Shown: positions 21,709 to 32,101 of the stretch, in pieces
Numbering within the stretch: position 1 is the stretch's first letter
Layout of the letters: every line of letters starts with the position of its first letter
From: Nocardioides anomalus
GTDB taxonomy: Bacteria > Actinomycetota > Actinomycetes > Propionibacteriales > Nocardioidaceae
Length of the DNA stretch: 64,000 nt
Direction: 5' to 3'
Assembly: GCF_011046535.1 (NCBI RefSeq)
Contig: NZ_CP049257.1
Coordinates: forward strand, 2,108,001-2,172,000
Made by a program: the position numbers and the translations under genes
The notes under the pieces: generated by a model
What the model saw: only the letters and a program-made list of their open reading frames with translations
Told to the model about the DNA's origin: nothing
Database searches by the model: none

Positions 21709-22188
21709 GTGACGTCCTCCCCACCCGACCTCGACCACCTGCGCCGCGCCATCGCGCTCTCGCAGGCGGCCCGCGACCACGGCAACCACCCGTTCGGCGC
21801 CCTCCTGGCCGACGCCGACGGCCGCGTCGTCCTCGAGGCCGAGAACACCGTCGTCACCGGCGCCGACGTCACCGGCCACGCCGAGACCAACCTGGTCCGC
21901 CTCGCCTCCCGCGACCTCGCCCCCGACCTGCTCGCCACGCACACCCTCTACAGCAGCTGCGAGCCCTGCGCCATGTGCTCCGGCGCCGCCTACTGGGCCG
22001 GCATCGGTCGCGTGGTCTACGCCCTGAGCGAGGCCGGCCTCGCCCGCCTCACCGGCCCCCACCCGGACAACCCCACCCTGGACCTCCCGAGCCGCGACGT
22101 CCTCGCGGCCGGCAGCCGTCGCGTCGAGGTCGACGGGCCGCTGCTCGAGGACGAGGCCGCGGTCCCGCACCAGGGCTTCTGGGCCTGA
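21709..22188 (+). CDS. nucleoside/nucleobase deaminase, CDA fold
   Basis: A 159-residue zinc-dependent deaminase of the cytidine/deoxycytidylate deaminase superfamily. The zinc motifs are GHAETN (His and catalytic Glu) near residues 64-69 and SSCEPCAMCSGA near 84-95. The arrangement resembles guanine deaminases and TadA-like proteins, but the chromosomal tRNA adenosine deaminase usually has a longer C-terminal helix, so a small-molecule substrate is more likely. The GTG at 21709 follows a weak AATGAT box by 6 nt. It is upstream of, but not overlapping with, the ten-gene catabolic operon. Confidence 0.82.
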   Translation: MTSSPPDLDHLRRAIALSQAARDHGNHPFGALLADADGRVVLEAENTVVTGADVTGHAETNLVRLASRDLAPDLLATHTLYSSCEPCAMCSGAAYWAGIGRVVYALSEAGLARLTGPHPDNPTLDLPSRDVLAAGSRRVEVDGPLLEDEAAVPHQGFWA

Positions 22189-22293
22189 TCCCCGGGCCGG
22201 ACCTGGCGGCCTGAGCCCGTAGCGTCGCCAGCGCTCGGCGCGCGCTCGGTCGCGACGTCACAGGACGTTTACACACGACTTCGGACCAGACCC

Positions 22294-22350
22294 TTGACTG
22301 CGCAATCGTTATTCCTGTTGTCTGCCTCTGTCGGAAAGAACGTTTGCGCA
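22294..22350 (+). promoter_or_regulatory. operon promoter with paired LacI-type operators
   Basis: TGCGCAATCGTT (22299-22310) is repeated in inverted orientation as AACGTTTGCGCA (22339-22350), identical at 11 of 12 positions when reversed. Each has a central CG and a TGCGCAA arm, like operators of actinobacterial LacI-family repressors. A -35-like TTGACT (22294-22299) touches the first site, but the -10 is unclear. The region precedes the operon encoding a LacI regulator (29528-30532), so autoregulation is inferred. Confidence 0.6.
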
Positions 22351-22364
22351 GAGAGGCGGACCGC

Positions 22365-23336
22365 GTGCGGGTGGCTGTGGTGGCGACGGGCGGGACGATC
22401 GCGTCCCGCCGCGACGACCGGGGGGACGTGGTTCCCGTCGACGGTGCCCGCGAGCTGTTCGCCTCGGTGCCGGTCGACCCCCGGCTGGACGTGGAGTACG
22501 TCGACCTGGCCCCGGTTCCGAGCTTCGCGGTGGGACTCGACGAGATGGTCGCGGTGGTGCTGAGGGTCCGCGGGCTGCTGGCCGGGGGGCATGAGTCCGT
22601 CCTGGTCACCCACGGGACCGATTCGCTGGAGGAGATGGCCTTCCTCGTCTCGATGCTGATGCCCACCGACGCCCACGTGGTCCTCACCGGCTCGCAGCGT
22701 CCGGCCGACGACCCGCACTCGGACGCCGCCGGCAACCTCGCGGACTCGCTGACCGCTCTCCAGGCCGGGCTCGGGCCGTGCGTGGTCATGGGTGGGTACG
22801 CCGTGGCCGCGTTCGAGGCGCGCAAGGTGCACACCTCGGCGACGGCCGCGTTCTCTGGTGGGGCGGCCGGTGCGATCGCGCTGATCGACGGCCCCGACGT
22901 GGTGCCGCTGTCTCGTCCGTGCCGCGGCGGGAACTTCGCCGACGTCACCCCACCCACCCTGCCCCGGGTCGACCTGGTCAAGCTCGGGGCCGGCACCGAT
23001 GGCGCTCACGTCGACGCGTCCGTCGCCGCGGGTGCAGCCGGCGTCGTCCTGGAGGCCTTCGGACGCGGCAATGCCGGGCCCGGCCTCGTCGACGCCGTCG
23101 AGCGCGCGACCACCGCAGGCGTGCGCGTCCTCGTGTCGAGCCGTGTCGGCCACGGGCTGGTGCGGCCGGTGTACGGCCAGGGCGGCGGCGCCGACCTGGC
23201 GCGCGCCGGCGCGGACTTCGCCGGTGACCTCACCGCCCCTCGAGCCCGCGTCGCGCTGGGCCTCGCGCTGGCCCACCCCGAGCTCGGGCCGGTGGACAAG
23301 CAACTGGAGATGGTGTGGCGGGGGCAGAGCGCATGA
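22365..23336 (+). CDS. asparaginase-family amidohydrolase
   Basis: A 323-residue type I/II asparaginase fold. The first catalytic Thr is in AVVATGGTIASR near residues 4-14, and the second Thr-Asp pair is in VTHGTDSLEEMAF near 82-94. TGSQRP near 114 and the C-terminal domain (EAFGRGNAGPGLVDAVERA) are present. There is no signal peptide, so it acts in the cytoplasm. The family hydrolyses amides of aspartate or related acids. The GTG at 22365 has GAGG 8 nt upstream; a TTG at 22344 is an alternative. It is the first gene of a ten-gene operon and could hydrolyse a half-amide produced by the PuuE-like enzyme two genes later (inference). Confidence 0.85.
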   Translation: MRVAVVATGGTIASRRDDRGDVVPVDGARELFASVPVDPRLDVEYVDLAPVPSFAVGLDEMVAVVLRVRGLLAGGHESVLVTHGTDSLEEMAFLVSMLMPTDAHVVLTGSQRPADDPHSDAAGNLADSLTALQAGLGPCVVMGGYAVAAFEARKVHTSATAAFSGGAAGAIALIDGPDVVPLSRPCRGGNFADVTPPTLPRVDLVKLGAGTDGAHVDASVAAGAAGVVLEAFGRGNAGPGLVDAVERATTAGVRVLVSSRVGHGLVRPVYGQGGGADLARAGADFAGDLTAPRARVALGLALAHPELGPVDKQLEMVWRGQSA

Positions 23337-24367
23337 GGACCCAGGCAGTGGTGATGCGTGAGCTCGGCGACGAGTCCGTGCTGCACCTGGAGGACGTCGA
23401 GCTGGCCGCACCCGGTCCGGGGGAGGTGCTGCTGCGCGTGCTCGCGGTGGCGGTCAACCACCTCGACCTCGAGCTGCGTGACGGACGCTCTCGCATGCCC
23501 CTGACCTTTCCTCACGTCCTGGGCCGCGAGCTGGTCGGCGAGGTCGTGGAGGTGGGCGACCCGGCCGGCTCCGAGTGGAGCGCCGGCGATCGCGTCGTCC
23601 TGCTGCCCCACGTGCCGTGCGGCCGGTGCCGGCACTGCCTCACCGGCTCGGCGAACATCTGCCTGGCCGGCTGGATGCCCGGGATCCACGGGTGGGGTGG
23701 GTACGCGCGTCACGTCCTGGCCCCCGTGCGCGGACTGCGCCACGTGCCGGACCTCCCCGTCGAGGTCCTGGCGGCTCTTCCCATCTCGTTCGGCACGGCC
23801 TGGCGGGCCCTGCACTCCGCGGCCTCGGTCGTCACCGGGGACTGGGTCCTGGTCCCCGGCGCCGGAGGCGGGCTCGGCCACGCCTCGGTGCAGGTCGCCG
23901 CGCTGGCCGGAGCCCGGGTCATCGGGTTGGTCCGGTCCGCGGCGAAGGCCGACTTCGTGAAGGCGTGCGGCGCCGAGCACGTCGTGCTGACCGACACCGA
24001 CGGCTGGCCGGACGAGGTGCGCGGACTCACCGACGGCCGGGGAGTGGACGTGGTGGTCGAGCACGTCGGCGGCGACAGCTTCGAGGGCTGTCTCGCGGCG
24101 CTGGCCCCTCGGGGCACGCTCGTCGTGGCGGGTGGCCATGGGGGCGAGCACCCCCGTCTGGACGTCATCGAGGTCTTCCGCAACGAACTGCGCGTCCACG
24201 GCGTGCGCAGTCAGCGACCCGACGACGTCGAGCGCGTGCTGGACCTCGCTGCCGCGGGCCGGCTGCGCCCGCAGGTCGACCAGGTGTTCAGCCTCGAGCA
24301 GGCCGCGGACGCGCACCGACGCGTGGCCAGCCGCCAGGCCGTCGGGAAGGTCGTCCTGGTCCCGTGA
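23333..24367 (+). CDS. zinc-type medium-chain dehydrogenase/reductase
   Basis: A 344-residue MDR-superfamily oxidoreductase with a GroES-like N-terminal domain and a Rossmann domain. The structural-zinc loop is intact (HVPCGRCRHCLTGSANIC near residues 88-105). The catalytic zinc Cys of typical alcohol dehydrogenases is replaced by Asn in AVNHLDLELRDG near 45, a pattern of quinone- or enone-reducing relatives. The nucleotide-binding region is VPGAGGGLGHASVQVAALAGA near 176-196. It overlaps the asparaginase-family gene by 4 nt (ATGA). The substrate is unknown; redox of an intermediate in the operon's pathway is inferred. Confidence 0.85.
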   Translation: MRTQAVVMRELGDESVLHLEDVELAAPGPGEVLLRVLAVAVNHLDLELRDGRSRMPLTFPHVLGRELVGEVVEVGDPAGSEWSAGDRVVLLPHVPCGRCRHCLTGSANICLAGWMPGIHGWGGYARHVLAPVRGLRHVPDLPVEVLAALPISFGTAWRALHSAASVVTGDWVLVPGAGGGLGHASVQVAALAGARVIGLVRSAAKADFVKACGAEHVVLTDTDGWPDEVRGLTDGRGVDVVVEHVGGDSFEGCLAALAPRGTLVVAGGHGGEHPRLDVIEVFRNELRVHGVRSQRPDDVERVLDLAAAGRLRPQVDQVFSLEQAADAHRRVASRQAVGKVVLVP

Positions 24368-24411
24368 GCGCCCCACCCGAACCGTCCGGAGCAGGAGAAG
24401 AGAGGTCGAAG

Positions 24412-25347
24412 GTGAGCACCGTCCGACAGCAGACCCGGGACTTCATCGGCTACGGCCGCGACGCGCCCGCCATCGAGTGGCCCGGCGGCGCGAAGGTCGC
24501 GGTGAGTCTCTGCCTCAACTACGAGGAGGGGGCCGAGCACAGCATCCTCGACGGCGACGACCGCAACGAGTGGGTGGGCGAGATCGCCTACACCCCGGCG
24601 GACGCCAGCCGGCGTGACCTGTCGCAGGAGTCGGTCTACGAGTACGGCAGCCGGGCCGGCATCTGGCGACTGATGCGGCTCTTCGACCGGACCCAGGTCC
24701 CGGTGACCTTCTTCGCGGCCGCCCAGGCCCTCGAACGCAACCTCGAGGTCGCACGCGCCATCGTGCCGGCCGGCCACGAGGTCTGCTCGCACGGGCTGCG
24801 CTGGGTGGAGCCCGCGTCCATGACTCCGGAGGAGGAGCGCGACCAGGTGCTCCGCGCCGTCGAGAGCCTGGAGCGGACCACAGGTGAGCGGCCGGTCGGC
24901 TGGTACTCCCGCTACGCCCCGTCGGAGCACACGCGCCGGATCCTCGTCGACCAGGGCGGGTTCCTCTACGACTCCGACGCCTACAACGACGACCTGCCGT
25001 ACTGGACCTCCGTCAGCGGCCAGCGGCACCTGGTGGTGCCGTACACCCACACCTACAACGACGGCCGCTTCGCCTTCAACCCTGGCTACTCCCAGCCCGG
25101 GGACTTCCTCGAGAACGTCCGCAGGGGGATCTCCTACCTCATCGAGGAGGGGGAGACGCACCCCAAGATGATCTCGGTCGGGCTCCACGCGCGACTGGTC
25201 GGCCAGGCGGGCCGGACCTCCGCGCTCGCCGAGCTCATCGAGTGGTGCCAGTCGACCGGCGCCGTCTGGTTCGCCCGCCGACGCGACATCGCCCAGTGGT
25301 GGAGCGACCACTACTCCGACCTTCCCACGCTTGGAGGTGACGACTGA
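24412..25347 (+). CDS. PuuE-like allantoinase / cyclic imide hydrolase family protein
   Basis: A 311-residue polysaccharide-deacetylase-fold protein of the branch that includes metal-independent allantoinase PuuE and cyclic imide hydrolases. Diagnostic segments are RDFIGYGRDAPAIEWPGGAK near residues 8-27, CLNYEEGAEHSILDGD near 34-49, VTFFAAAQALERN, and EVCSHGLRWVEP near 123. There is no signal peptide, which argues against a cell-wall deacetylase. The enzyme probably opens a cyclic amide, imide or ureide ring. The GTG at 24412 is preceded by GAGAGGTCGAAG; a GTG at 24364 overlapping the previous stop would add 16 residues. The 3' end overlaps the ABC ATPase gene by 1 nt. Confidence 0.82.
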   Translation: MSTVRQQTRDFIGYGRDAPAIEWPGGAKVAVSLCLNYEEGAEHSILDGDDRNEWVGEIAYTPADASRRDLSQESVYEYGSRAGIWRLMRLFDRTQVPVTFFAAAQALERNLEVARAIVPAGHEVCSHGLRWVEPASMTPEEERDQVLRAVESLERTTGERPVGWYSRYAPSEHTRRILVDQGGFLYDSDAYNDDLPYWTSVSGQRHLVVPYTHTYNDGRFAFNPGYSQPGDFLENVRRGISYLIEEGETHPKMISVGLHARLVGQAGRTSALAELIEWCQSTGAVWFARRRDIAQWWSDHYSDLPTLGGDD

Positions 25348-26141
25348 TGCGCGTCGAGATCGACCGGATCAGCAAGTCCTACCGGACGCCCGAAGGGGCG
25401 CCGCTGCCCGTCGTCGACGGGCTGTCGGCCACGATCGAGGAGGGGGAGTTCGTCTGCATCATCGGCCCGAGCGGCTGCGGCAAGAGCACGCTGCTCGGCA
25501 TGCTCGGCGGGCTGCACGCTCCCGACTCCGGGGCCGTTCGGTTCTCAGGTCGGCGCAGCGCCCAGGGCGAGATGACCTCCATCGTCTGGCAGGACTACGC
25601 CCTCATCCCGTGGCGCACGATCGTGGACAACGTCGCCATCGCTCTCGAGCTGCGCGGCGTGCCCAGGCGCAAGCGGCGAGCGGTCGCCCTGGAGCACCTC
25701 GAGACGATGGGCATCGAGGCCTTCGCCAAGTCGCGGCCGCAGCAGCTCTCGGGTGGCATGCGCCAGCGCGCAGGCATCGCGCGCGCCCTGGCCAGTGACC
25801 CCGAGGTCCTGCTGATGGACGAGCCGTTCGCGGCAGTGGACGCCCAGACCCGGACCCTGCTCCAGGAGGAGCTCCTCGACGTCTGGGAGAAGCACCAGAA
25901 GACGGTGCTCTTCATCACCCACGGCATCGAGGAGGCGCTGCTCCTCGCCGACCGGGTCCTGGTCCTGAGCGGCCGCCCCACGAAGGTCGTCGAGGATCTC
26001 CGCGTCCCCTTCGCCCGGCCCCGCGGTACGGCCACGACCGAGGACCCCCGCTTCGCCGAGCTCAAGACCCACCTGTGGGAGCGGCTGCGCGACGCGACGC
26101 TGGCCGCGGAATGGGCCGAGGCCGAGGAGGTGTCGGCATGA
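25347..26141 (+). CDS. NitT/TauT-family ABC transporter ATP-binding protein
   Basis: A 264-residue ABC ATPase. Walker A GPSGCGKST is near residues 42-50, the Q-loop VWQDYALIPW near 79-88, the signature LSGGMRQR near 135-142, Walker B VLLMDEPF near 155-162 and the switch His in FITHGIEEA. The Q-loop followed by LIPWRTIVDNV is typical of nitrate/taurine/sulfonate-type importers. It energises the permease and binding protein encoded next. The ATG overlaps the preceding stop. Confidence 0.92.
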   Translation: MRVEIDRISKSYRTPEGAPLPVVDGLSATIEEGEFVCIIGPSGCGKSTLLGMLGGLHAPDSGAVRFSGRRSAQGEMTSIVWQDYALIPWRTIVDNVAIALELRGVPRRKRRAVALEHLETMGIEAFAKSRPQQLSGGMRQRAGIARALASDPEVLLMDEPFAAVDAQTRTLLQEELLDVWEKHQKTVLFITHGIEEALLLADRVLVLSGRPTKVVEDLRVPFARPRGTATTEDPRFAELKTHLWERLRDATLAAEWAEAEEVSA

Positions 26142-26998
26142 GCGCGACGTCCACCCCTGCGCCGACCGAGGCGGCCGCACCAGCCGTCGTCTACGGACCG
26201 AGCCGACGCGGCACCAGGGGGCCGAGCCGTGCGTTCCGCTTCATGGCGAGCCCCGCCGGCAGCCTGGTCCCGGTCGTGGTGATCCTCGCCGTGTGGCAGC
26301 TCGGATCGCGAGCAGGGCTGATCGACGAGACCTTCTTCCCGGCGCCGTGGGACTGCGCCGTGGCCCTGAAGGACCTCCTGGCCGACGGAGACCTGCTCTC
26401 CAACATCTGGATCACCGTGCAGCGGATCCTGGCCGGATTCGCTCTGGGTGTCGTCCCGGCCGTCGTCGTCGGGATCATGATGGGCCTGGTCCCGTGGCTC
26501 AAGGTGGTCCTCGACCCGGTGATCGCGATCCTCTACCCGATCCCGGCCGTGGCGATCCTGCCGCTCCTGCTCGTCATCTTCGGCACCGGCGGTACGCCGA
26601 TCATCGTGCTCGGCGGGATCATCTCGTTCTTCCCCTCGGCGGTGAACGCCATGGCGGGCGTCCAGCAGAACGACCAACGCCTCGTGCTCATGGCCCGCAA
26701 CATGGGCGCCTCCCGCGCCCAGATCCTGTGGAAGGTCGTGCTGCCCGGCGCGCTCCCGTCGATCTTCGCAGGCATCCGCCTCTCGGCCGGCCTCGCGCTG
26801 CTCGGTGTCATCGCCGGTGAGTTCCTCGCCGGCTCCGACGGCATCGGCTCGCTCACCTGGCAGTACTGGCAGGTGTACCAGATCAGCAACATGTACGCGA
26901 CGCTCGCGGTCATCGCGGCCATGGGATTCGCCCTCACCACGGTGACGCTGCGAGTGCAGCGTCGCTTCTTCAACTGGACGGAAGGAAGCACGCGATGA
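26138..26998 (+). CDS. NitT/TauT-family ABC transporter permease
   Basis: A 286-residue permease with six predicted transmembrane helices. The first is SLVPVVVILAVWQLGSRAGL, near residues 41-60. The EAA-type coupling loop is ARNMGASRAQILWKVVLPGALP near 187-208, and the last helices lie around MYATLAVIAAMGFALTTV. It forms the membrane channel of the importer for an unknown, probably small anionic or heterocyclic solute. It overlaps both neighbours by 4 nt (ATGA). Confidence 0.92.
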   Translation: MSATSTPAPTEAAAPAVVYGPSRRGTRGPSRAFRFMASPAGSLVPVVVILAVWQLGSRAGLIDETFFPAPWDCAVALKDLLADGDLLSNIWITVQRILAGFALGVVPAVVVGIMMGLVPWLKVVLDPVIAILYPIPAVAILPLLLVIFGTGGTPIIVLGGIISFFPSAVNAMAGVQQNDQRLVLMARNMGASRAQILWKVVLPGALPSIFAGIRLSAGLALLGVIAGEFLAGSDGIGSLTWQYWQVYQISNMYATLAVIAAMGFALTTVTLRVQRRFFNWTEGSTR

Positions 26999-28080
26999 CC
27001 CCGAAGAAGGCCCTGTCCGCGTTCCTCGTGGCCGGGTTCGCCCTGGCCGTGACGGCTTGCGGCAGCGACTCCGGTGACGACGACTCCGCCTCGGGTGACG
27101 GGATGCAGAAGGTCACCGTGAACACCCTGCCCATCGTGGCCCTGGCGCCGATGTTCGTGGCGGAGGACAAGGGGTTCTTCGAGGAGGAGGGCGTCGAGAA
27201 CTCCTACACCGACTCCGACATCTACGCCCAGCTCGCGCTGCAGAGCCAGGGCAAGCTCGACGTCAACATCCCGGGCCTGGGTGGCGCGTTCTACAACGCC
27301 ATCAACCAGAACCTGGAGCTCAAGGCCGTCGCCGACCGCAACCAGTACACGTGCTCCTCCGACAGCATCCTGCTGGTCGGCACCAAGGCCAAGGAGGCCG
27401 GGCTCGAGACGGTGGCGGACCTGAAGGGCAAGAAGGTCGCGATCCTGGCCCGGGGCTCGTCGACCGAGTACTGGCTGAGCCGGGCCCTCGAGGACGAGGG
27501 ACTGACCATCGACGACCTCGGCGGGCTGACGACGCTCGGCTACCCCGACATCGCCAACGCGCTCAAGACCGGCGCCGTGGACGCCGGCTTCATGACCGAG
27601 CCCATCGCCTACGGGCTGATGGCCGACGGCGACGCCGAGCGCATGCTCGCGACGTACGAGATCGTCCCGGACAACCAGCAGGGCGTGATCTCGATGTCGC
27701 AGGACTTCATCGACAAGCGCCCCGAGGTGGCCGCGAAGTGGATGGCCGGCTGGCTCAAGGGCGTGCGGTACTTCCAGGACCCAGCCAACAGGGACGAGGT
27801 CGTCAAGATCATCGCGGACAACACCCAGGTGCCCGTCGAGACCGTCGACGCGCTCTACGGGACCGACCAGTGGCCCTACCAGAACCCGAACGGCGAGGTC
27901 GACACCGAGCGGGCCACCGCGGACGACGGTGCCTGGCTGGTGGACAACGGCGTCATCGAGGAGATGCCGGACACCGACGAGTGGTACGACGACTCGGTCG
28001 TCAAGGCCGCCCTGGAGGAGGTCGGCACCGTCGACTCCGAGCGTGACTGCTCCACCGTGCAGCCCCTGCAGGTCCCGTGA
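26995..28080 (+). CDS. NitT/TauT-type ABC transporter substrate-binding lipoprotein
   Basis: A 361-residue secreted lipoprotein. The signal peptide ends in a VTACGSD lipobox with Cys at about residue 22. The mature protein is a NMT1/ThiY-like two-lobe binding protein (TVNTLPIVALAPMFVAEDKGFFEEEGV near 40-66). The second-lobe segment ALKTGAVDAGFMTEPIAYG resembles proteins that bind sulfonates, pyrimidines or related small molecules. It supplies specificity for the importer. The exact ligand cannot be read from the sequence. Confidence 0.9.
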   Translation: MTPKKALSAFLVAGFALAVTACGSDSGDDDSASGDGMQKVTVNTLPIVALAPMFVAEDKGFFEEEGVENSYTDSDIYAQLALQSQGKLDVNIPGLGGAFYNAINQNLELKAVADRNQYTCSSDSILLVGTKAKEAGLETVADLKGKKVAILARGSSTEYWLSRALEDEGLTIDDLGGLTTLGYPDIANALKTGAVDAGFMTEPIAYGLMADGDAERMLATYEIVPDNQQGVISMSQDFIDKRPEVAAKWMAGWLKGVRYFQDPANRDEVVKIIADNTQVPVETVDALYGTDQWPYQNPNGEVDTERATADDGAWLVDNGVIEEMPDTDEWYDDSVVKAALEEVGTVDSERDCSTVQPLQVP

Positions 28081-28859
28081 TCGGCTCGGCCAACAAGGTG
28101 GTCGCCGCCCTGGAGGAGGGCCGGCCTGCCTTCGGCAGCCTCACGCTCCTCCAGGAGCCGGCGGTGGGGGAGATCCTCGGTCGCTGCGGCTACGACTTCC
28201 TCGTCATCGACAGCGAGCACGCGGCGGCCGACGAGCAGTCGGTGCTGGCGATGGTGCGCGGTGCCCAGTCGGCAGGCTGCACGCCGATCGTCCGGGTGCG
28301 GCACGCCGAGCGCAAGGAGATCCTCTGGGCGCTCGACACGGGAGCCGGAGGGGTCCTCGTGCCCGTCCTGGAGTCGGGGGAGCAGGCCCGGGCCGTGGTC
28401 GACGCGGCGCACTACCCACCGCGCGGGCGGCGTACGGTCTGTTCCGCCACGCGTGCCGCCGGCCACGGAACGGCGCGCCGGGACTTCGGTGAGTACCTCG
28501 CCTGGGCCGAGCGCAACGTCCTCACGATCGGGCTGGTCGAGACCCGTCGCGGGGTCGAGGAGCTCGACGCGATCCTGGCCTCGGGTATCGACGTGGTCAT
28601 GCTCGGCCGCGCCGACCTGTCCCTCGACATGGGGCTGGGCTACGCCCCGTGGCACCCGGACGTGGTCGCCGCGTCGTACGACGTCGTGGAGCGGGCGCTC
28701 GCCGCCGGAGTGACGCCCGGGGTGCTGGCCTACAGCGTCGAGGAGGCGCACGAGTGGATGGCGCGCGGCGTCTCCTTCGTCGTCTTCTCCCAGCCCGAGA
28801 TGCTCCTGAGTGACGCCTACCAGCAGGCCATCGCCGGGTTGCGCGGAGGCGCCTCGTGA
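28077..28859 (+). CDS. HpcH/HpaI-family aldolase
   Basis: A 260-residue TIM-barrel class II aldolase/lyase. Expected catalytic and metal ligands are visible: His in DSEHAAAD near residue 46, Arg in IVRVRHAERKE near 71, Glu in IGLVETRRGVEELDAI near 146, and Asp in LGRADLSLDMG near 172. The substrate-binding segment YPPRGRRTV is near 113. The family cleaves 4-hydroxy-2-oxoacids or related 2-hydroxy acids to pyruvate or glyoxylate plus an aldehyde or acid. In this operon it would deliver central metabolites from the ring-opened substrate (inference). It overlaps the binding-protein gene by 4 nt (GTGA). Confidence 0.88.
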   Translation: MIGSANKVVAALEEGRPAFGSLTLLQEPAVGEILGRCGYDFLVIDSEHAAADEQSVLAMVRGAQSAGCTPIVRVRHAERKEILWALDTGAGGVLVPVLESGEQARAVVDAAHYPPRGRRTVCSATRAAGHGTARRDFGEYLAWAERNVLTIGLVETRRGVEELDAILASGIDVVMLGRADLSLDMGLGYAPWHPDVVAASYDVVERALAAGVTPGVLAYSVEEAHEWMARGVSFVVFSQPEMLLSDAYQQAIAGLRGGAS

Positions 28860-29518
28860 GCCTGCTGGTGACCGGCGGAGCGCAGGGCATCGGCGCGGCG
28901 ATCGTGGACAAGGCGCGCTCGACAGGAGAGCGTGTCGACGTGCTGGACCTCGAGCTCGGCGTGGACGCGGCCGATCCGGCCGCGGTCCGCGAGTTCGTCG
29001 AGTCCGTCCCGACCCCGACCAGGGTGGCCCACATCGCCGGCGTGGTGGGCCGGGGCGGGCTCGGCGAGGTGGAGCTGTCCGACTGGGACCGGGTGATCCG
29101 GGCCAACCTGACCTCGGCCTTCGTGGTGACCAACGAGGTCGTGCCACGCATGGCCGAGGCCGGGGGCGGCGCGGTGGTGCTGATGAGCAGCCTGAACGCC
29201 CGCGACGGCGGGACGACCATGTCGGGCGTGGCCTACGCCAGCGCCAAGGCCGGCGTCCTCGGGCTCGCACGGCACGCCGCCAAGCACTGGGGTCCGCACG
29301 GCGTCCGCGTCAACGCGATCGCCCCGGGCCCCGTCCGGACCCGCGTGCACGACCGGCTCACCGCCGAGCAGCGGGCCGGGCTGCTGGCCGCGATGCCGCT
29401 GCCTCGTGTGTCCGAGCCGCAGGAGATCGCCGACATCGTGCTCTTCCTGCTCTCCGAGTCGTGCGCGAGCGTCACCGGCATGACGTTCGACGTCAACGGC
29501 GGAAGCCACCTGAGCTAG
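28856..29518 (+). CDS. short-chain dehydrogenase/reductase
   Basis: A 220-residue classical SDR with the cofactor motif TGGAQGIG at residues 6-13, the NNAG-equivalent HIAGVVG near 58, catalytic Ser in VLMSSLNARDG near 105, and YASAK near 126. It is short by about 25 residues compared with typical 245-residue SDRs because the region after the first strand is compact. It probably oxidises or reduces a hydroxy/oxo intermediate of the operon's pathway. It overlaps the aldolase gene by 4 nt (GTGA) and precedes the regulator by 9 nt. Confidence 0.9.
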   Translation: MSLLVTGGAQGIGAAIVDKARSTGERVDVLDLELGVDAADPAAVREFVESVPTPTRVAHIAGVVGRGGLGEVELSDWDRVIRANLTSAFVVTNEVVPRMAEAGGGAVVLMSSLNARDGGTTMSGVAYASAKAGVLGLARHAAKHWGPHGVRVNAIAPGPVRTRVHDRLTAEQRAGLLAAMPLPRVSEPQEIADIVLFLLSESCASVTGMTFDVNGGSHLS

Positions 29519-29527
29519 GAGCCCTGC

Positions 29528-30532
29528 GTGCCGACCCCAGTGACTCTGCGCGACGTCGCCGCCGCGACCGGTGTGCACGCCTCGACGGTGTCGCGCATCC
29601 TGCGCGGCGACCGGCACCGGGTGCGGCCGGAGACCGCGGAGCGGGTCCTCAGCTACGCCGCGGAGGTGGGCTACACCGCGAACCGCTGGGCCGCGAGCCT
29701 GCGCAGCGGGCGGACCAACGTCCTGGGGATGCTGGTGCCGCGCATCACCGACGCTGTGCTGGCGACGGTCTTCGAGTCGTTCGAGCAGGCCGCGGCCCGA
29801 GCCGGGTTCATGTCGCTGGTGGCGAGCACCCGGGACGTCCAGGAGAACCGCGCCGAGGGGATCCGACGCTTCGTCGAGCAACGCGTCGACGGCATCGTGG
29901 TCGCCGACGCCCGGCTCACCGATCCCGAGCTGCTCGCGATCCACGCGGCCGGCACCCCCCTGGTCCTGGCGAGCAGGCGTACCGCCGGCATCCCCTTCGT
30001 CGTCAGCGACGACGTCGGCGGCGGTCGACTGGCTGGTCGCCACGTGGGCGACTCCGGGGCCCACCGGGTCGCCGTGCTGGCCGGACCGGAGTACGCGAGC
30101 ACGGCGACGGAGCGGACCGAGGGCTTCCTGGCGGGCCTGGCCGAGTCCGGAGGGCCGCACGAGGTGACGGTGCGGCACTCGGGCTTCGACCTCGAGGCCG
30201 GTCAGGCGACCATGGAGGAGATCCTCAGCCACGAGGAGAAGCCGGACGCGGTCTTCGCCGTCAACGACTTCGCGGCGATCGGCGCGATGTCGACGCTGGC
30301 TCGGCACGGACTCCAGCCCGGCCGCGACGTCGCGGTCGTGGGCTACAACGACATCGCCATCAGCGGCGAGCTGCTCGTCCCCCTGACCAGCGTCCGTGCC
30401 GACCTCGACGCCATGGGTCGGCTCGCCTTCGAGTCCGTCCGCAGCGCGATCGAGGGCCAGCCGGTACCGGACCACCTCGTCCCGACCGAGCTGGTGGTCC
30501 GAGAGTCCAGCGTCGGTCCGGGACGCCGGTGA
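29528..30532 (+). CDS. LacI-family transcriptional regulator
   Basis: A 334-residue repressor. The N-terminal helix-turn-helix is VTLRDVAAATGVHASTVSRIL near residues 5-25, and the hinge helix region is NRWAASLRSGRTNVLG. A periplasmic-binding-protein-like effector domain extends to about residue 325 (AVNDFAAIGAMSTLARHG and VVGYNDIAISGELL). AGGAG lies 6 nt before the GTG. It is the ninth gene of the operon and probably binds the paired sites at 22299-22350. The effector is likely the imported compound or an intermediate. Confidence 0.92.
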   Translation: MPTPVTLRDVAAATGVHASTVSRILRGDRHRVRPETAERVLSYAAEVGYTANRWAASLRSGRTNVLGMLVPRITDAVLATVFESFEQAAARAGFMSLVASTRDVQENRAEGIRRFVEQRVDGIVVADARLTDPELLAIHAAGTPLVLASRRTAGIPFVVSDDVGGGRLAGRHVGDSGAHRVAVLAGPEYASTATERTEGFLAGLAESGGPHEVTVRHSGFDLEAGQATMEEILSHEEKPDAVFAVNDFAAIGAMSTLARHGLQPGRDVAVVGYNDIAISGELLVPLTSVRADLDAMGRLAFESVRSAIEGQPVPDHLVPTELVVRESSVGPGRR

Positions 30533-31860
30533 GCCTCGAGGGCTCCTGGTCCCGGTGGCGCTCCCGCTTGGCGGACCGTCTGCGGCGTGATCCGTTGGCC
30601 GATCCTGCGGTACGCCGCAAGGCCACCCTGGTGCTGGTCGACGACCTCGCCGGCGGGCTCGCGGCCACGGCCCACCCGGAGGTCTCGGCGTTCGCACACC
30701 GAACCGGTCACCGGACCGGCGGCGAGGCGACGGTGCTGGCCGGCGGCCGGGGGTCCCGGGAGCGGGCGGCCGCGGCCAACGCGGTCGCGATCGGCTGGGA
30801 CGAGCTCGACGGCGGGTACCGCCCCGCGCCGTGCCACGGCGGGCTGTACGCCGTCCCGGCCGCGCTCGCGGAGGCGGAGGCCACCGGCGCCCGCGTCGAC
30901 GACCTCCTGTCCGCTCTCGTGGTCGGCTACGAGCTGGCCGCTGCGGTGGCCGAGGCGTTCCCCCCGGCGCCGGCCCTCGAGCTCCACCCCCACGCCGCCC
31001 TGGCGCCCGTCGGTGCCGCTGCCGCGGTGACCTGGCTGCGCACCCGGAGCTCCGCCGCTGTGCTGGCGGCCGGCGACGCCGCGATCACCCTCGGTGCCCG
31101 GGGTCCCTTCCAGCACGCCACGCGGGGGCTCCTGGTCCGCAACGTGTGGGCCGGGGCGGGCGCCCAGCAAGGGTTCCTGGCCGCGGACGCGGCCGGTGCG
31201 GGTCTCGGGGCCGACGCAGGCGCCCTGCTGGACGTGCTGGCTCCTCGCACGCCGTTCGTGGACGCCCTGCCCGACACCGACTGGGCCGTCCTGGCGGCGT
31301 ACCACAAGACCTACGCGGCCTGTCAGTACGCACACGCCGCCATCGAGGCGGCCCTCGCCCTCGCAGCGACGGTGCGGCCCGAGGACGTCCGCGAGGTCGC
31401 GGTCGAGACCCACCCGCTCGCCCTGGCCCTCGAAGGAACCGCACCGCAGACCGTGCTGGCCGGGAAGTTCTCCGTCCCCCACGCGGTCGCCGCGGTGCTC
31501 GTCGCCGGGCGAGCAGACCCGGACGTGTTCGGCGCGGAGCTCCTGCACCACCCGGCCGTGGCCGCCCTCCGCACTGCGACGTCCTTGGGCCCCCTCCAGC
31601 CCCTGCCGGCGCCACCCCACGACCGGGCGGCCCGCGTCACCGTGCACCTGGTCGGCGGCGGTGTGCGCACCGAGACGTGCCTGAGCGCGAAGGGCAGCCC
31701 GGACCGGCCGCTGAGCGAGGCCGACGTCCTCGACAAGGCCGGCCGGCTCACCACGGGAGTGGCTCCGGGCTTCGTCGGCGAGGCGACCCGCACGCTCTCC
31801 GGCGTGCGTGGTGACGTCACCGCGGGTGACTGGCTGCGCTCCCTGATCGCGCCGGCCTGA
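30529..31860 (+). CDS. MmgE/PrpD family protein
   Basis: A 443-residue member of the MmgE/PrpD family, which includes 2-methylcitrate dehydratase, cis-aconitate decarboxylase and iminodisuccinate epimerase. The all-helical large domain contains the conserved GWDELDGGYRPAPCHGGLYAVPAALA segment (near residues 85-110) with the Asp-rich and His-containing active-site patch. The C-terminal lid domain contains KTYAACQYAHAAIEAALAL near 263-281. In this context it could dehydrate, isomerise or epimerise a dicarboxylate released by the hydrolases (inference). It overlaps the LacI gene by 4 nt (GTGA) and is followed by a hairpin. Confidence 0.87.
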   Translation: MSLEGSWSRWRSRLADRLRRDPLADPAVRRKATLVLVDDLAGGLAATAHPEVSAFAHRTGHRTGGEATVLAGGRGSRERAAAANAVAIGWDELDGGYRPAPCHGGLYAVPAALAEAEATGARVDDLLSALVVGYELAAAVAEAFPPAPALELHPHAALAPVGAAAAVTWLRTRSSAAVLAAGDAAITLGARGPFQHATRGLLVRNVWAGAGAQQGFLAADAAGAGLGADAGALLDVLAPRTPFVDALPDTDWAVLAAYHKTYAACQYAHAAIEAALALAATVRPEDVREVAVETHPLALALEGTAPQTVLAGKFSVPHAVAAVLVAGRADPDVFGAELLHHPAVAALRTATSLGPLQPLPAPPHDRAARVTVHLVGGGVRTETCLSAKGSPDRPLSEADVLDKAGRLTTGVAPGFVGEATRTLSGVRGDVTAGDWLRSLIAPA

Positions 31861-31867
31861 GCCGGCC

Positions 31868-31889
31868 CCGCTCGCGGTGGACCGAGCGG
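31868..31889 (+). terminator. hairpin terminator of the ten-gene operon
   Basis: Perfect 7-bp arms CCGCTCG and CGAGCGG enclose an 8-nt loop, 7 nt after the last stop codon. A 13-nt direct repeat, TGAGCCGGCCCCG (31858-31870 and 31891-31903), flanks it. Confidence 0.6.
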
Positions 31890-31937
31890 CTGAGCCGGCC
31901 CCGAGGGGGTCGGCGAGCACCGGTCGTGTGCTGTTCC

Positions 31938-32025
31938 TGGTGTCCGAGGGGGGACTTGAACCCCCACGCCCTATACGGGCACTAGCACCTCAAGCTAGCG
32001 CGTCTGCCAATTCCGCCACCCGGAC
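31938..32025 (-). tRNA. tRNA-Leu (anticodon GAG)
   Basis: An 88-nt class II tRNA read on the minus strand. The acceptor stem GTCCGGG pairs with CTCGGAC, with one G-U pair. The anticodon stem CTAGC/GCTAG encloses the loop TTGAGGT, giving anticodon GAG for CUC codons. A long variable arm (GTGCCCGTATAGGGCGT) follows, then the T-loop GGTTCAAGTCC. The discriminator A is followed by an encoded CCA (31938-31940). Confidence 0.95.
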
Positions 32026-32089
32026 GAGTGCGCCGGGAACGATAGCAAACGCCGGCCCCCGTCCCCGCATCGCGGGAGGGGGTCCGTGA

Positions 32090-32095
32090 CATGCT
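32090..32095 (+). promoter_or_regulatory. putative -10 box, M20 peptidase gene
   Basis: CATGCT ends exactly 6 nt before the ATG at 32102, and no Shine-Dalgarno sequence is present. A leaderless transcript is predicted. Confidence 0.4.
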
Positions 32096-32101
32096 CGGGC
32101 C

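Follow-up and report, generated by a model that had tools for sequence, protein, structure and literature searches.

Within a 64-kb stretch of the Nocardioides anomalus genome (NZ_CP049257.1, positions 2,108,001 to 2,172,000; hereafter the window), which is a single contig of 5.12 Mb, we analysed a ten-gene operon that a preliminary description, made from the sequence alone, had read as a catabolic pathway for a cyclic imide or amide. All ten co-directional frames exist, on the + strand from 22365 to 31860, and with the start of the PuuE-like gene taken as 24364, eight of the nine junctions overlap by 1-4 nt, the sole non-overlapping one being a 9-nt gap before the LacI gene. The unit opens with an asparaginase-type amide hydrolase (22365-23336; PF00710 and PF17763, the asparaginase N and C domains), followed by an MDR (medium-chain dehydrogenase/reductase) oxidoreductase (23333-24367) and a PuuE-like hydrolase of the polysaccharide deacetylase fold (24364, or 24412, to 25347, with its conserved part from about 24433). 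Next come the ATPase (25347-26141), permease (26138-26998) and NMT1/SsuA-like substrate-binding protein (26995-28080) of a NitT/TauT-type ABC importer, an HpcH/HpaI aldolase (28077-28859), a short SDR (short-chain dehydrogenase/reductase) of 220 amino acids (28856-29518), a LacI-family regulator (29528-30532) and an enzyme with both MmgE/PrpD domains (30529-31860; PrpD below). Pfam assigns every protein, joined by NCBIfam matches for the importer proteins, aldolase and regulator, by alignment for the MDR, aldolase and SDR, and by a modelled fold for the binding protein. Both databases agree with each family name given at the outset, and none of the ten proteins reaches a curated NCBIfam cut-off among the matches listed (the best 25 each for the MDR, ATPase and SDR).

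Two palindromic LacI-type sites lie on the + strand upstream: operator 1, TGCGCAATCGTTATTCCT, at 22299-22316, and operator 2, the inverted copy GGAAAGAACGTTTGCGCA, at 22333-22350, directly before the first gene. Both match the core exactly, and a pair of sites with the outline TGNNCAAACGTTTGNNCA stands before the first gene in all ten gene clusters of this type described below, with a start-to-start spacing of 27-35 bp. No other position in the window scores at least 9 with the site matrix, though the scores of the 20 cluster sites are not independent because the matrix derives from their 14 distinct sequences. Across the host genome, the core TGCGCAAWCGTT has two exact matches, both before this operon, and five one-mismatch matches elsewhere; a reversed control pattern has one match. 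Counting against the pair, the second site of one cluster (L003) scores 11.6, less than single matches in two of nine control loci (L090, 13.1; L097, 12.0), and three clusters (L006, L008 and L089) each contain one extra weak match (9.9-10.6). A palindrome with a central CG before the first gene, together with a regulator gene, is the arrangement of a LacI-regulated operon, and the LacI protein, whose NCBIfam matches are for the most part sugar or nucleoside regulators, is predicted to bind both sites. A TTGACT at 22294-22299, seen by eye, could be a -35 box whose end is overlapped by operator 1. The preliminary description had placed a promoter/operator region before the genes and a hairpin after them. 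The operator region is real and conserved in 10/10 clusters, while a scan of 22150-32100 returned no sigma-70-like and no terminator-like sites, and the GC-rich hairpin at 31861-31910 (+) is a weak terminator candidate (folding z -1.42; 16 of 200 shuffles fold equally well) with no T run after it by eye.

We defined nine core genes (asparaginase-like, MDR, PuuE-like, the three importer genes, HpaI-like, SDR and LacI) and scanned the PuuE-like protein against genome contigs, keeping the best 80 loci from 485 relatives. All nine genes are present at seven of these, where PuuE-like identity is 71-86%: one each in Nocardioides (L002), Microbacterium (L003) and Homoserinibacter (L004), and four in Micromonospora (L005-L008). 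The set is absent from the remaining 73 loci, all at no more than 56% identity. A binding-protein search reached two further clusters, L088 (genome G295) and L089 (G152). Counting the window's own, 10/10 clusters carry the nine genes in the same order on a single strand, an agreement that exceeds chance. These clusters represent about six lineages, because five Micromonospora-type clusters are near one another in the tree. Co-conservation in other actinobacteria, which had been suggested as a check on the initial reading, thus extends to nine genes, and the proposal that the operon carries its own importer and repressor holds as well, with the NitT/TauT set inside the unit and the LacI gene accompanied by the operator pair in every cluster.

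The tenth gene, PrpD, is found in nine of the ten clusters and is more mobile. In the window it follows the other nine genes on their own strand, and in L002 it is likewise downstream but in the opposite orientation; in L003 and L088 it precedes them and is transcribed away from them. In L005-L008 and L089 it sits between the MDR and PuuE-like genes and belongs to a subfamily only 27-35% like the other cluster PrpDs. Its presence at four positions and as two subfamilies therefore suggests that the activity itself is wanted, beyond mere neighbourhood. A second SDR gene, upstream and divergent, occurs in L004 and L088 (62% alike between both). In L002, a DHDPS-family gene (L002:17758-18705) lies upstream of PrpD on the same strand and possibly belongs to the same pathway in that strain.

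The cluster is also rare. At E ≤1e-30, the binding protein is found in 2/58 relatives and 4/394 class genomes (own genome counted in both), one of the four being a 34% match in an unrelated context; at E ≤1e-45, it is found in 2/396 phylum genomes (own included) and in 2/200 and 2/299 genomes of two families, these genome samples overlapping one another. The HpaI-like protein at 1e-45 is found in 3/306 class genomes (G000, which is the host itself, G152 and G295), the same three that hold a close binding protein. A protein search gave 49 clusters at 44% identity or more and then a fall to 39% or less, among 90 matches listed and 8000 candidates scored. Plasmids yielded one binding-protein relative, at 31%. 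In the open-licence literature, no title or abstract opening names this gene set. Taken together, the operon is very probably one dedicated, rare and patchily distributed regulon, and its status as a single unit is well supported. Base composition was considered as a sign of recent transfer and gave no clear one (GC content of 0.698-0.745 in 4-kb steps across the operon, 0.701-0.761 in the rest of the window). Just upstream of the operators, a cytidine-deaminase-family gene (21709-22188, same strand) is probably outside the unit because the ORF lists of the other clusters show, by eye, no such gene next to them. A tRNA-Leu (gag) follows on the opposite strand (31938-32025).

The PuuE-like protein scores 347 bits against the PuuE allantoinase model TIGR03212, below the cut-off of 424.6. 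It retains the NYEEG and HGxRW motifs as in PuuE. We placed it in a midpoint-rooted tree of 86 rows, 48 of which belong to no group. All ten cluster rows group in a single clade (100/100) inside a 37-row side, whereas all 28 urate-linked or solved rows fall on the opposite, 49-row side (100/97): 25 loci with a flanking uraD gene and three solved chains, one of which (3s6o) is counted here though its function is not given. The cluster proteins thus do not place among the urate-linked or solved allantoinase rows. Similarly, uraD flanks 0/7 cluster loci and 25/73 other loci, with flanks of differing length. Twenty-two alignment columns split the cluster rows from the urate-linked or solved rows (uniformity of at least 90% and 85%), including two in a C-terminal extension. 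Three others, L213H, D214T and M218G, sit beside the invariant N216 and D217 and may line the substrate pocket. From its sequence, this protein is probably no allantoinase.

The neighbourhoods of other PuuE relatives differ between the two sides of the tree. On the cluster's side, 12/27 other loci have an amidase, asparaginase or isochorismatase-type gene no more than 6 kb from PuuE, versus 1/46 on the urate side, or 9/19 versus 0/22 when both flanks are at least 4 kb (Fisher p 1e-5 for the contrast, with seeds drawn from the cluster's side and loci related). M20-type genes show 10/27 versus 0/46, and an HpaI or PrpD gene is near PuuE at 0/73 other loci on either side. One of those 12 loci, from an uncultured Rhodospirillales bin (L009:1774-8161), holds a second PuuE-linked gene set: in a row, genes for an MDR, a CitE-like lyase, a CoA-transferase III, an isochorismatase-type hydrolase, a PuuE-like protein and an amidase. 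On Rhizobium plasmid pRL12 (L101:6733-15556), a HydA gene is accompanied by three SDRs, a TPP enzyme, a dihydroorotase-family gene and a PuuE that is annotated as allantoinase; the plasmid's gene table, which is incomplete, has no uraD in the part shown. On a Paenarthrobacter plasmid, a DUF6986 gene (L100:8365-9642) lies beside PuuE-like and allantoin-permease-like genes and is itself weakly matched by the HpcH/HpaI model.

The asparaginase-like protein has both family domains and the catalytic Thr, Thr-Asp and Lys of asparaginases: its GGTIAS, THGTD and RK motifs are invariant in the nine or ten rows aligned. It does not score as an L-asparaginase proper, its best asparaginase model giving 101.4 of 314.3 bits among the matches listed; the best NCBIfam match overall is GatD (107.6 of 310 bits). 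The MDR protein retains four Cys of the structural-zinc type and apparently lacks the catalytic-zinc ligands, with N and R (in NHL and GRE) at what we take to be the positions of Cys and His in catalytic-zinc enzymes. The SDR has the family's TGGxxGIG and YxxxK motifs, the latter invariant in nine or ten aligned rows, and its Asp 31 suggests a preference for NAD. The HpaI-like protein belongs to HpcH/HpaI (PF03328, 96.8 bits; cut-off 25) and in 10/10 clusters keeps H48, R73, E155 and D180, which align with H45, R70, E149 and D175 of 4b5s, the metal and catalytic residues of HpaI. It falls short of the equivalog TIGR02311 (160.5 of 368.8 bits).

PrpD has both MmgE/PrpD domains (N and C, 82.2 and 92.3 bits; cut-off 32.1) and no NCBIfam match. 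D94, H103, H155 and K260 are invariant in 26 rows, and the one solved match is 2hp3, at 33.5 bits. Outside the clusters, the window's PrpD subfamily occurs in other gene contexts, with 10/294 genomes of the family holding it at E 1e-60, a count that takes in the host genome and G029. One such locus (L094:7892-16871) joins it to a second PrpD, an FAD enzyme and an OYE-family reductase by Pfam and, by eye, to an aldehyde dehydrogenase and a GntR regulator, in an order resembled in L096 and L098; PrpD and SDR genes also occur together in L095, L097 and L099. Near another PrpD relative stands a methylisocitrate-lyase-type gene (L093:14119-15051; 300 bits, cut-off 354.4), with an MHS-type transporter by eye. 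No substrate follows from these loci (L093-L099), which hold other enzyme sets.

The importer has the ATPase, permease and NMT1-type binding protein that together define the NitT/TauT type. The binding protein has a VTAC lipobox by eye, and its model (pLDDT, the predicted local distance difference test, 91.6) matches the folds of 3qsl, a pyrimidine-precursor binder, a thiamine binder, TauA, SsuA, NrtA and CmpA. We dropped the attempt to read a substrate from these matches, which are too broad. The nearest other binding protein (L090, 34%) gave none either; its neighbours, by eye, are Rieske-type oxygenase genes and genes for other transporters.

From this gene content, we propose that the operon serves the uptake and breakdown of a single small cyclic amide, with a substituted cyclic imide as the likeliest candidate, a reading to which we give about an even chance. 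The binding protein and ABC proteins would bring the ring compound in, and the PuuE paralogue would then hydrolyse a ring C-N bond to give a half-amide, from which the asparaginase-type enzyme, as half-amidase, would free the amide nitrogen as ammonia. The MDR and SDR may adjust C=C or alcohol/ketone groups, with PrpD acting as hydratase, dehydratase or epimerase on the resulting acid. The HpaI-like enzyme could cleave a 4-hydroxy-2-oxo acid by a retro-aldol step to pyruvate and an aldehyde. LacI would come off both operators in the presence of the compound or of a product. The sequence of the four enzymatic steps, from ring opening to aldol cleavage, is provisional. We favour an imide because an amide hydrolase follows the ring-opening hydrolase and the conserved set is without a carbamoylase. 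Of the pathway first suggested for this DNA, a single co-conserved unit, catabolic in outline, stands, while its cyclic-imide substrate class we infer. More tentatively, and with some doubt, the operon may encode an aerobic route in which a paralogue of the metal-free allantoinase opens the ring of a substituted imide or lactam; an asparaginase-type half-amidase, a non-standard MmgE/PrpD enzyme and a pyruvate-yielding HpaI variant would act after it, all under one private LacI. The substrate of such a route could, for instance, be a succinimide or glutarimide bearing a hydroxyl or alkyl group. We dropped an isonicotinate or citrazinate route, for which there is no gene evidence and no title in the open-licence literature, and did not adopt tetrapyrrole-derived maleimides with methylisocitrate-type cleavage, a reaction that HpaI chemistry does not suit.

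Several observations weigh against a cyclic imide. The solved chains nearest to the PuuE-like protein, 1z7a and 3cl6 (314 and 306 bits), are allantoinase-type, and the protein scores only 67.6 bits to HpPgdA (3qbu), a relative of reported cyclic imidases; allantoin, PuuE's own substrate, is a hydantoin. On the cluster's side, where a quick tree places it, L100 has an allantoin-permease-like NCS1 gene and a DUF6986 gene, the latter also found at the host urate locus, and L101 has a HydA gene; because of these neighbours, that side may hold ureide enzymes. An OHCU decarboxylase is encoded somewhere in 14/19 tested genomes of other loci on this side. The binding-protein fold matches span pyrimidine, sulfonate, nitrate and bicarbonate binders alike. 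Furthermore, L004 lacks PrpD in its vicinity, and the rest of its genome gives one match, of 52 bits. Because some relatives sit beside hydantoin- or allantoin-type genes, the ring compound may instead be a hydantoin or another lactam. We consider unlikely, while giving it real weight, a pathway in which a 5-substituted hydantoin is converted by the PuuE-like enzyme to an N-carbamoyl acid, with the other enzymes degrading the side chain. The kinship to allantoinase-type chains, with NYEEG and HGxRW in common, speaks for it, as do the neighbours of L100 and L101 and those of L103 (HydA) and L102 (a hydantoin-racemase-family gene), two loci that group with urate-side rows. Yet the conserved set has no carbamoylase, racemase, urease or ureidoglycolate gene, and it includes an asparaginase-type gene in 10/10 clusters; we know of no action of asparaginase-type enzymes on carbamoyl groups.

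A reading as ordinary allantoin breakdown by an unusual set of genes has the same PuuE kinship in its favour and is scarcely credible. We rejected it on the separate clade, the sub-cut-off score, the gene context and the host's own allantoinase, in agreement with the preliminary description, which had argued against this pathway. A host urate locus near 2.604 Mb, about 463 kb from the operon, encodes urate oxidase (295.8 bits; cut-off 168.4), OHCU decarboxylase, HIU hydrolase and the AllB allantoinase (513.8 bits; cut-off 357.85). An OHCU decarboxylase is present in only 3/8 cluster genomes tested (own, that of L003 and that of L006) versus 17/18 tested on the urate side, although at the genome level this says little because of its frequency among the other loci on the cluster's side. 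At the host locus, a DUF6986 gene (L091:2765-3403, near 2.606 Mb) adjoins urate oxidase and AllB. Distinctly unlikely is a sugar-acid-like substrate, a polyhydroxylated lactam or amide from which the PuuE-like and asparaginase-like enzymes would strip nitrogen. MDR, SDR, HpaI and LacI are a usual kit for sugar acids, the LacI matches point the same way, and the HpaI-like gene is matched by HpaI, 2-dehydro-3-deoxyglucarate and 2-keto-3-deoxy-L-rhamnonate aldolase models (160, 131 and 118 bits); the set, however, has no sugar-acid dehydratase or kinase family by Pfam, and sugars are not usually imported by the NitT/TauT type. That there is no single breakdown pathway here, and that separate enzymes travel together or form a biosynthetic set, is very improbable: PrpD relatives do occur in other contexts, but the nine genes, their order and the operators are the same in 10/10 clusters, with the importer within the unit.

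The operon thereby becomes a fixed, testable nine-gene unit, and its binding protein and LacI regulator offer two independent routes to the compound. It also marks a sharply defined PuuE subclade whose members similarity-based annotation could easily name allantoinase. If the substrate is an imide, the cluster would add a second way of opening cyclic imides, one of the PuuE type.

Several of the enzymes resemble known systems and also depart from them. With the HpaI 4-hydroxy-2-oxoheptanedioate aldolase (4b5s), the window's aldolase shares the four aligned metal and catalytic residues; unlike it, it scores below the cut-off and in 10/10 clusters has LVE for QIE and GRADLS for GPADLS. PrpD resembles the IDS epimerase 2hp3 in both Pfam domains and in D94, H103, H155 and K260, but has RN in place of its Lys-Pro; 2-methylcitrate dehydratase is another MmgE/PrpD family member. 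The PuuE allantoinases (Pseudomonas 3cl6; 1z7a; TIGR03212) are alike at 305-314 bits, in NYEEG and HGxRW and in many invariant residues, whereas the window protein lies below the cut-off in its own clade, has the L213H, D214T and M218G changes and is without uraD nearby. Metal-type imidases, compared here through HpPgdA 3qbu rather than CIH or HxnM sequences, carry HGxxH, with two His, as their second motif; the PuuE-like protein has HGLRW where 3qbu has HGYSH, so that Trp replaces the second His. A published study reports metal bound by HpPgdA and not by PuuE, and terms the PuuE substrate a small cyclic imide (PMC3084791). In Aspergillus nidulans nicotinate breakdown, the cyclic imidase HxnM acts before the amide hydrolase HxnN, and HxnM is reported near the Pseudomonas putida cyclic imide hydrolase and, structurally, HpPgdA (PMC9304392). 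The logic is shared, with the ring opened by an imidase and nitrogen freed by an amide hydrolase; the proteins differ, the window's ring opener being far nearer the PuuE type (314 bits) than HpPgdA (67.6 bits) and without the second His, and its amide hydrolase being asparaginase-like where HxnN is FAAH-like.

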